The position numbers and the translations under genes were made by a program. 64,000 nt of DNA, from assembly GCF_003259615.1 (NCBI RefSeq), contig NZ_QLLR01000029.1:1-64000 (forward strand), read 5' to 3'. The notes under the pieces are model-generated. The model saw nothing but the letters and a program-made list of their open reading frames with translations, did no database searches and had not been told where the DNA came from. Positions 36,331 to 59,852 of this stretch are shown in pieces. Each line of letters starts with the position of its first letter. The first letter of the stretch is position 1. This DNA is from Pedobacter cryoconitis. GTDB taxonomy: Bacteria; Bacteroidota; Bacteroidia; Sphingobacteriales; Sphingobacteriaceae.

Positions 36331-36951
36331 TTAATTAATTTTCAACCAGCCGGTTATGCTTAATCTTGGTTTATTCGTCATTAATACTTCATGGACGAGT
36401 TCACTGCTTTTGAAGAAAACACTTTTACCATTATCAGGTGATATTTTTTGCAAACTATCCGCATGGTGAATACAAAGTTCTCCGCCATCATTTTGCTGCC
36501 AGTCAGCATTCAGGTAAATGATCATTGAATATTGCCTGCTATCATTGTTCTTGAACTGATCCAGATGTTTTTTATAGAAACTTCCTTCTTCGTATAAAGT
36601 ATAATGGAATTCATAACCAGTAATTCCGGTGTAACAAGAGCTGTTCAGGTAACTGACAAAGCTATCCATCAAATCAAAAAAACTGTTTTCGTGAATATTA
36701 TTATGCTTTCTGTCTAACCAGTAGATCTTATCACTTCTAACCAGCTGATCATGAGAAACACTAGTTTCATTTCCTGTTCCTGCGGATAGCAGTAATTTAT
36801 TGTGGTAAAGGCCGTACAGGTTTTCTTTGAGTTGTGCAGCTAAAGCTACGCTTAAAAAATTTTCTGTGATGCCTACCTTATTGTCTATAAAACTATCGAT
36901 TAGCGTGTTAAAGGTGTTTTGCAAGGAGCGGGGTGGGAAAATATATGGCAA
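36331..36951 (-). CDS. 2OG-Fe(II) oxygenase (prolyl 4-hydroxylase-like)
   Basis: This protein of about 206 residues keeps the iron ligands: HxD in KKHLDQFKNN, a distal His in SSELVHEVLMTNKPRLSITG, and the arginine that binds 2-oxoglutarate just after it. Family members hydroxylate peptidyl-proline or other substrates with O2 and 2-oxoglutarate. No ATG is available near the N-terminus; TTG 36951 or TTG 36924 is the likely start, with a TAA stop ten codons upstream. It precedes the protease gene on the same strand. Confidence 0.82.
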   Translation of the reverse strand: MPYIFPPRSLQNTFNTLIDSFIDNKVGITENFLSVALAAQLKENLYGLYHNKLLLSAGTGNETSVSHDQLVRSDKIYWLDRKHNNIHENSFFDLMDSFVSYLNSSCYTGITGYEFHYTLYEEGSFYKKHLDQFKNNDSRQYSMIIYLNADWQQNDGGELCIHHADSLQKISPDNGKSVFFKSSELVHEVLMTNKPRLSITGWLKIN

Positions 36952-36998
36952 ATCGCCAGCATGTTGGTGAAGGTAGGTTTAATTAATCAATAAAATGC

Positions 36999-37006
36999 TA
37001 ATTTTG
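36999..37006 (+). promoter_or_regulatory. -7 box upstream of the 132-residue gene
   Basis: TAATTTTG matches TAnnTTTG, 31 bp before the ATG at 37037. No clear -33 element is seen. Confidence 0.35.
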
Positions 37007-37036
37007 CAACCCTAACGAGCATCTCAATTTTAACCA

Positions 37037-37435
37037 ATGAATTTATTAGAAGCAAGAGTACTATGGAGTTATGCTCATGAACTGGAGTCAAAAACAGGAA
37101 TTAACAATATTGCTGCCCAGTTTACAGGTGTTCCCCCAATACACAGTCATACCGGTGTTTTAGTTTTAACAAGAAAAGGATTAACCGTTCAGGGTGATGA
37201 TCAGGATGTGGATTTGAAGATCTCACTAGGAGATATAGAAGAAGTTTATGTAGGTTTTGATGAAAATTACCAGCGTAATTTTGTTAAAAACCTGGGTTTA
37301 TTATGTCAGCCGCTAAGAATCTTAACCAATGACGGGATTTCGAAAAAGACAATCTACCTGATTTTGGATTACAATTATTTTGGTTGTGCCAGGAACCTGA
37401 CCTTATTTAATATGCTGCAGGAAATGTTAGCCTGA
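37037..37435 (+). CDS. Conserved protein, PH-like, function unknown
   Basis: The 132-residue protein has no signal peptide or membrane segment. Its beta-rich pattern (HTGVLVLTRKGLTVQGDD, IEEVYVGFDENYQRNF) suggests a PH-like fold. I recognise no functional motif. It is monocistronic, ended by a clear terminator and followed by a small membrane protein. Confidence 0.65.
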   Translation: MNLLEARVLWSYAHELESKTGINNIAAQFTGVPPIHSHTGVLVLTRKGLTVQGDDQDVDLKISLGDIEEVYVGFDENYQRNFVKNLGLLCQPLRILTNDGISKKTIYLILDYNYFGCARNLTLFNMLQEMLA

Positions 37436-37437
37436 AA

Positions 37438-37470
37438 GGAAGAGATTCTATATTGGAATCTCTTCCTTTT
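37438..37470 (+). terminator. Terminator after the 132-residue gene
   Basis: GGAAGAGATTC (37438-37448) pairs with GAATCTCTTCC (37456-37466) across a 7-nt loop and ends in TTTT. It lies 2 bp past the stop codon, so little of the 3' leader remains. Confidence 0.85.
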
Positions 37471-37473
37471 GAA

Positions 37474-37496
37474 TTTTATCACCCGGGGTGATAAAA
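37474..37496. promoter_or_regulatory. 23-bp palindrome upstream of the small membrane protein
   Basis: TTTTATCACCC and GGGTGATAAAA are perfect 11-bp arms around one G. With no loop it suits a dimeric DNA-binding protein rather than an RNA hairpin. It occupies the -33 region of the promoter whose -7 box is 37503-37510. Confidence 0.5.
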
Positions 37497-37502
37497 AATA
37501 TT

Positions 37503-37510
37503 TAAGTTTG
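37503..37510 (+). promoter_or_regulatory. -7 box of the small membrane protein promoter
   Basis: TAAGTTTG is an exact TAnnTTTG match 19 bp before the ATG at 37530, with an upstream palindrome in the usual -33 position. Confidence 0.5.
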
Positions 37511-37529
37511 CATTTCTTCAAAAATAACT

Positions 37530-37706
37530 ATGGCAGATTTCTTTAAAAAGAACGGGATTAAAATTATCTCAATTTTATTACTTATTCTTATCCTTGGTGA
37601 CGCATGGCTTTTATTAACCAAAGGCTTTTCCTCTACCGTACTTTCGGGTTTAATCGGTTGCTCACTTACTTTATTTGGCTTGAATTACTTCAAAAATAAA
37701 AGCTAA
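37530..37706 (+). CDS. Small membrane protein (58 residues), function unknown
   Basis: The frame from ATG 37530 to TAA 37706 encodes a basic, lysine-rich N-terminus (MADFFKKNGIKI) and two hydrophobic helices (about 12-30 and 35-52) ending in NYFKNKS. The positive-inside pattern fits a two-helix inner-membrane protein. It has its own terminator-bounded, promoter-bearing leader with a palindrome. The stop overlaps the end of the opposing panE-like gene by 4 bp. I do not recognise its family. Confidence 0.55.
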   Translation: MADFFKKNGIKIISILLLILILGDAWLLLTKGFSSTVLSGLIGCSLTLFGLNYFKNKS

Positions 37707-38647
37707 ACCAGCATTCCATTTTTGATCTCATGATAAATCTCTGTGGTTTCCGGGACTGGAATCCCCAGCGCTTTTCCGTAGGCTATAATTGCCCCGGCAA
37801 ATAGTTCAAGCTCTGTATTTTCTTTTCCTGATTGGACATCCAGTTGCAAAGAAGTTGGTGTTTGAAAAGGGAAGGAGGCTGCTTTCTGAAAGGTTTGCGC
37901 AATGATGTTTTCAGGAAGATTGATCTCTTTTCTGATCGCGATTGCCTGTATTTCCTGCATCACTTTTAAAGCTCTCTGATGTAATTCTTCTTCCTCATTA
38001 ACCTGTCCGATTGATTTGTTGTATCTGGCAGAAACCAGGCCAAAGCTCGCAATGAAAAAGTATTTGGACCAGATGGCCGGAAATGAATCTTCTTTGTAGT
38101 CTATATCAACCGATGCGTCCTTAAACAAGTCAACGATACCCTGAGGATCGAACTCCTGATGTGCCGGATCTTTACCTACAATGATTTTACCCGGGTTTCC
38201 TTTATGTTCAACAACTCCTTTTTCTTTGATATGCGAGGCTACATAAACACAAGAAGGCAGTACAATTCCACTGGATATTATTTTACGTATCCTTTCATAA
38301 ATGTCCACGCCATTCATCAATGGCAGAATAACCGTATCATTTTTGATTTTATCTTTTAATTGATTGCAGATGTTTTCCAGATCATACTCTTTCACACAGA
38401 TTACAAATACATCTGTATGACCCAGCTCAGCCACTTCTTTTAAAATTTGATGAGGTCTGGCAATAGCATCTTCGTTCTCTGCAGAAAGCAGGGTAAGGCC
38501 ATTTTCTTTAACAATGTCGTAAGTTTTTTCGCGGGCAATAAAAGTAACGTTGATTGCGCTGTCTGCAGCATATTTCCGGGCAAGTTTAAACCCGAAATAA
38601 CCACCAACACCGCCTAATCCGATAATAGCAAATTCTGTTGTTTTCAT
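37703..38647 (-). CDS. panE: 2-dehydropantoate 2-reductase (ketopantoate reductase)
   Basis: The protein has 314 residues. The N-terminal NADPH site GLGGVGGYFGFKLA fits the Rossmann GxGxxG. The C-terminal helical domain contains the family segment IWSKYFFIASFGLVSARYNK, with lysine in the expected region. It reduces ketopantoate to pantoate in the pantothenate/CoA pathway. Family members with other substrates exist, so the assignment is by resemblance. It is monocistronic, with a hairpin between it and the next gene. Confidence 0.85.
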   Translation of the reverse strand: MKTTEFAIIGLGGVGGYFGFKLARKYAADSAINVTFIAREKTYDIVKENGLTLLSAENEDAIARPHQILKEVAELGHTDVFVICVKEYDLENICNQLKDKIKNDTVILPLMNGVDIYERIRKIISSGIVLPSCVYVASHIKEKGVVEHKGNPGKIIVGKDPAHQEFDPQGIVDLFKDASVDIDYKEDSFPAIWSKYFFIASFGLVSARYNKSIGQVNEEEELHQRALKVMQEIQAIAIRKEINLPENIIAQTFQKAASFPFQTPTSLQLDVQSGKENTELELFAGAIIAYGKALGIPVPETTEIYHEIKNGMLV

Positions 38648-38761
38648 TTTTCTGTTAAAATTTTAACTGATCTGATTAATAATCCGCAAGGTGGACAAAT
38701 TACATGTTATCAAATATAAATCCTAATCAGAAAGTGGAAAGATGACGGGGTGATGAAACAG

Positions 38762-38778
38762 GTGACCGGGGAGGTCAC
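38762..38778. promoter_or_regulatory. Small inverted repeat between panE and the nucleoside transporter
   Basis: GTGACC and GGTCAC are 6-bp arms around GGGGA. Too short to be certain; it could be an operator for the flanking genes or chance. Confidence 0.2.
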
Positions 38779-38793
38779 AGTTGTTATAGGAAT

Positions 38794-38825
38794 GTTATAC
38801 CCTGCTCAAAAAAGCAGGATATAAC
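38794..38825 (-). terminator. Hairpin after the nucleoside transporter
   Basis: GTTATA and CCTGCT (38794-38806) pair with AGCAGG and TATAAC (38813-38825) around a short A-rich loop. It lies 10 bp past the minus-strand transporter's stop codon. Confidence 0.65.
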
Positions 38826-59830: not shown

Positions 59831-59852
59831 AAATCCGGCCTGGGCCGGATTT
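59831..59852 (-). terminator. Terminator after the omega-amidase
   Basis: AAATCCGGCC (59831-59840) pairs with GGCCGGATTT (59843-59852) and on the minus strand runs into TTTTC. It lies 18 bp past the gene and ends the aminotransferase/amidase operon. Confidence 0.8.

Follow-up and report, generated by a model that had tools for sequence, protein, structure and literature searches.

A conserved 58-codon gene of the Pedobacter cryoconitis group, encoding a probable two-helix membrane protein, with a conserved -7 box and an unconserved palindrome

Is the short open reading frame that lies between two longer genes of Pedobacter cryoconitis a gene in its own right, and does the perfect palindrome in front of it have a part in its control? 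The question is raised by the window analysed here, a stretch of 64,000 nucleotides (contig NZ_QLLR01000029.1, positions 1 to 64,000) from a genome of 6.08 Mb in 84 contigs, referred to below as G000. From left to right the locus presents a 2OG-Fe(II) oxygenase-like gene (36331-36951, minus strand), a gene of unassigned function encoding 132 residues (37037-37435, plus strand), the small gene (37530-37706, plus strand) and, convergent to it, a panE/apbA-like gene for a 2-dehydropantoate 2-reductase (37703-38647, minus strand). The order 132-residue gene, small gene, panE is kept in all eight genomes that carry the small gene, as judged from coordinates. Neither Pfam nor NCBIfam has a match to the 132-residue protein at E up to 1; homologues of it occur in 64 of 145 genomes of the genus, and a paralogue with 53% identity lies in the same genome (G000:C60:2653-3030). 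A search of 36900-38000 against Rfam at E up to 1 returned four matches, none of which reached the gathering score.

A first-pass annotation had read the frame as an easily missed gene for a 58-residue membrane protein, and the frame it described is present, running from an ATG at 37530 to a TAA at 37706 on the plus strand. Eight full-length orthologues, the window's own genome counted, bear out the predicted conservation: all have 58 codons in frames of 174 nt with no insertion or deletion, their identity to the window's protein ranges from 83 to 98%, and 40 of the 58 columns are invariant. Of 28 pairs, 24 have a computable dS, and their dN/dS ratios lie between 0.014 and 0.144; saturation of dS precludes a value for the remaining four. 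The 69 variable columns are distributed 18, 4 and 47 over the first, second and third codon positions (p=4e-9). Low dN/dS, a bias towards third positions and the lack of frame-breaking indels are the marks of a coding gene, and a genuine small gene held under purifying selection is strongly supported by this comparison of sequences.

The distribution of the gene is narrow. Of the 145 genomes of the genus, a profile search at E up to 0.01 picked out 10, eight of them at full length with the window's own included, and at that sensitivity a full-length match is absent from the other 137. In a draw of 59 relatives, 24 genomes were matched at E up to 1, six of them at full length. Even draws of the family and the order matched 5 of 251 and 10 of 400 genomes respectively; full-length matches came from the window's own genome alone in the former and numbered seven in the latter, every one an already known carrier from the genus. 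The weak matches of the genus, family and order searches all had E values of at least 3e-4, and no credible relative outside the carrier group was found among the 251 family and 400 order genomes. Several candidate homologues were rejected on inspection: the translations of L050, L052, L053 and L054 are interrupted by stop codons, and L049 and L051 are pieces of longer open frames of 442 and 401 codons respectively, the latter frame resembling a multi-helix transporter by eye. Among the weaker matches of the 59-genome draw, L007 (which contains stops), L010, L015 and L028 were read and appeared unrelated by eye.

Among the carriers are P. cryoconitis S3M1, P. cryoconitis M2T3 and Pedobacter sp. 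PAMC26386. A search of the genus at E up to 1e-60 yielded 22 panE proteins, and in the tree built from them, which is a tree of panE and not of species, a single branch (support 95/99; recovered in 96% of 200 bootstrap trees) separates all eight carriers from the rest. The 14 non-carriers with a panE at that threshold showed by eye no recognisable diverged copy of the small gene beside panE. The same was true of the sequence just 3' of 22 homologues of the 132-residue gene, drawn from the 56 non-carrier genomes that have one, in a listing of frames longer than 100 residues or of high hydropathy. Searches with the small protein at E up to 1 returned nothing from Pfam, NCBIfam, PHROGs or the sequences of the PDB; when all eight members were compared with Pfam at E up to 10 the sole match came from one member, at E 4.8, and the collections of plasmids and phages gave no match to the gene at E up to 0.01. 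Literature on small or membrane proteins in Pedobacter or P. cryoconitis dealt with other subjects, as judged by title and abstract, and a search for the peptide ILILGDAW found nothing. The likeliest reading of this distribution is that the gene is lineage-specific and belongs to the P. cryoconitis group.

What kind of protein does it encode? The sequence has a lysine-flanked hydrophobic stretch that ends in an invariant GDAW, a loop of the type TKGFSS and a second hydrophobic stretch bearing invariant glycines, with a peak hydropathy of 2.55 over a 19-residue window. AlphaFold2, run on the eight-row alignment, placed helices at residues 2-31 and 35-57 (mean pLDDT 70, pTM 0.38); at so low a pTM the model gives no prediction of how the helices pack. 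A fold search of the PDB gave three matches, the best at E 5.1 and thus none below E 5. Hydropathy and this model of moderate confidence indicate that the product is probably a two-helix membrane protein. Location in the membrane is suggested by hydropathy and charge, and the lysines found at either end would place both termini in the cytoplasm. The protein would then form an inner-membrane hairpin of 58 residues, in which a first helix of about residues 10-29, bearing the invariant G-D-A-W near its end, would be followed by the short loop TKGFSS and a glycine-containing second helix of about residues 37-54. The invariant face of glycines and small residues on this second helix, together with the GDAW motif, may pack against a larger membrane protein.

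Small inner-membrane proteins of fewer than 100 residues that modulate larger complexes are exemplified in Escherichia coli by AcrZ, MgtS and CydX, each of which has one membrane helix. The protein described here shares with these modulators its size class, hydrophobicity and strict conservation within a lineage, but probably has two helices where they have one, and the likeness is one of kind, in size and hydropathy. By analogy with other small membrane proteins it may act as an accessory or modulating subunit, which we consider its most likely role on the basis of size and hydropathy, the grounds available for a protein that has no recognisable relative or partner. A likeness of the same general kind exists to the genus-specific small families of the GMSC catalogue, which are likewise lineage-restricted, devoid of a Pfam domain and hydrophobic (PMC11364881).

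A terminator scan identified the intrinsic terminator of the 132-residue gene, which the first-pass annotation had also noticed, as a GC-containing hairpin followed by T-rich sequence at 37433-37471 on the plus strand. Compensatory changes, in which both partners differ and pairing is preserved, affect 8 of its 17 pairs across the eight species, a number matched by none of 500 shuffles, and when the partner is slid by one to three columns the count of compensated pairs falls to between zero and three, although the alignment also served to predict the structure, which is thus favoured in this control, and related sequences can exceed shuffles. In all, 83.8% of the cells are paired; some pairs are broken in some species, and the RNAalifold covariation term is slightly unfavourable at +0.74. 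Invariant columns make up 17 of the 29 in the stem-loop among the four closest species and 5 of 29 among all eight. This terminator would separate transcription of the small gene from that of the 132-residue gene.

Between terminator and start codon lies the -7 box TAAGTTTG at 37503-37510 on the plus strand (-27 to -20 from the ATG), an exact instance of TAnnTTTG as had been claimed. The motif occurs 38 times on the plus and 34 times on the minus strand of the window, where 30 shuffles average 43.7 for one strand, and since it is no commoner than in shuffled sequence the presence of the box by itself says little. More telling is its conservation, the box being exact in six of the eight orthologous loci, the window's included, and diverged in G023 and G091, and the proposal that the gene has its own promoter is in this way reasonably supported. 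Among the four closest species 7 of 8 columns of the box and 18 of 19 of the leader are invariant, compared with 1 of 8 and 6 of 19 in all eight rows. A -33 element (TTTG) typically lies about 19-21 bases 5' of the -7 box; TTTG is absent at the expected spacing in the window's genome, and none is conserved across the eight loci.

TAnnTTTG is the sigma-A consensus reported for Flavobacterium psychrophilum, where it spans positions -12 to -5 relative to the transcription start (PMC9723704). By that spacing the start here would fall near 37515, just 3' of TAAGTTTG, with a leader of about 15 nt. Relative to the Bacteroidetes sigma-A promoters (PMC9723704), the small gene has the same exact -7 box but shows no -33 element, whose place is taken in G000 by the palindrome. 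An A at -3 is kept in all eight orthologues and an A at -6 in seven, and both belong to the features that have been reported as positive at start sites of Flavobacterium johnsoniae (PMC6847099). Expression from a sigma-A promoter is the likeliest arrangement suggested by the DNA, and the gene is probably transcribed alone.

The palindrome itself, TTTTATCACCCGGGGTGATAAAA at 37474-37496 (-56 to -34 from the ATG), is present as described, with perfect arms of 11 bp around one central base. It is not a terminator, as the T's stand before the stem and the A's after it, which is the wrong order. Although it would fold as RNA, it cannot serve as a leader hairpin of the promoter discussed above, since it lies 5' of the -7 box and so outside that transcript. 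A dimeric repressor or activator might be imagined to bind TTTTATCACC-n3-GGTGATAAAA over the -33 region and to control the small gene in this genome. Perfect arms in the place of a -33 element, just 5' of the -7 box, are positioned as such an operator would require, the order of T's and A's excludes the rival terminator function, and in G000 shuffling the 60 bases 5' of the ATG gave nothing as palindromic in 400 trials. Of the closest three relatives, two (G013 and G154) retain CACC...GGTG and the third (G019) carries CACC...GGCG, and the two arms have 7 of 11 and 8 of 11 invariant columns when the four closest species are compared. However, the spacer between CACC and GGTG is 3 in G000 and 5 in those three relatives, only 0 of 11 and 1 of 11 arm columns are invariant in all eight species, and in the other seven loci the best inverted repeat in the 60 bases 5' of the ATG does not stand out from base shuffles, 28-99.5% of the 400 shuffles being equally palindromic. 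The predicted conservation of the palindrome thus fails: it is perfect in G000 alone of the eight loci compared. One such palindrome in 64 kb is moreover only moderately surprising, because arms of at least 11 with a spacer of 0-3 were seen in 6 of 60 dinucleotide shuffles of the window (mean 0.12). The window's second-best perfect palindrome lies at 59831-59852 (AAATCCGGCC-TG-GGCCGGATTT).

The companion idea, that the palindrome would recur and so define a regulon, fares no better. A scan of the genome for the core TTATCACCNNNGGTGATAA (16 specified bases) with up to three mismatches gave 62 places, one exact, none with one mismatch and five with two, so that no second site within one mismatch exists in the genome; the reversed control pattern gave 29 places, and the excess is unexplained. 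Fourteen of the 61 other sites were read, namely the five with two mismatches and the first nine listed with three, and every one of them overlaps an open frame 70 codons or longer (73 at L040). A separate perfect palindrome, TTATCACGC-A-GCGTGATAA, was seen near position 1501 of L036 (G000:C43:22398-22416), within a frame that resembles an ABC transporter ATPase by eye. We conclude that the palindrome is a feature of G000 that is dispensable for the small gene in the relatives. Whether it serves as an operator private to this genome or arose by accident, it probably does not act as a control switch common to the carriers; the comparative evidence does not support a regulon, and even control of the small gene in this one genome appears unlikely.

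Downstream the situation is different. At 37703-37706 the two convergent stop codons, that of the small gene and that of panE, share two bases with an offset of one, so that of the isolation on both sides claimed for this promoter the upstream half stands, owing to the terminator, and the downstream half does not; the unit is insulated upstream and not downstream. Between 37472 and 38761 a consensus scan of 36400-38800 detected nothing resembling a terminator on either strand. Mutual antisense effects between the two genes are possible on paper, and one could go further and regard them as a mutually regulating convergent pair in which each transcript runs antisense into the other, as the one-base offset of the stops in all eight carriers and the terminator-free interval might encourage. 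Yet such tight packing can persist simply since shifting a stop would cost both genes, a consensus scan can miss terminators, and in the 14 non-carrier loci read panE stands in other neighbourhoods, which differ between the groups, and hence does not need the small gene. We consider this kind of mutual regulation doubtful. In 9 of those 14 loci panE lies beside a frame that by eye is transporter-like with multiple helices.

An antisense transcript from panE, should it exist, would also be in keeping with a small hydrophobic type I toxin or a holin-like protein, as would the size and hydrophobicity of the product, but the gene occurs once at full length in each of the eight carriers and always at the same place, its dN/dS is very low, and it has no PHROG, phage or plasmid match, which makes this reading very improbable. 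Still less can be said for a spurious open frame: the frame is short and corresponds to no family model, but in view of its dN/dS and third-position bias the chance of this is close to nil. The reading that we prefer, and hold to be rather probable, is that of a genuine small gene of the P. cryoconitis group, probably transcribed alone, whose product would be an inner-membrane hairpin that serves as an accessory or modulating subunit.

A bolder scenario combines a two-helix family born within the P. cryoconitis clade, mutual silencing with panE and an operator newly acquired in this species. We regard this combination as highly improbable; were it true, a new gene and a new switch would have been caught in succession. 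The likeliest view is more ordinary, namely that the small protein is a fresh member of a common kind, the small membrane proteins. Here the comparative data part a sound guess, the gene, from an unsupported one, the operator and its regulon. The finding adds a well-supported and strongly selected family of small proteins, probably of the membrane, that was found in a single clade of the genus and matches nothing in the family libraries searched. If a partner is found, it would provide a further case among the small regulators of membrane complexes.
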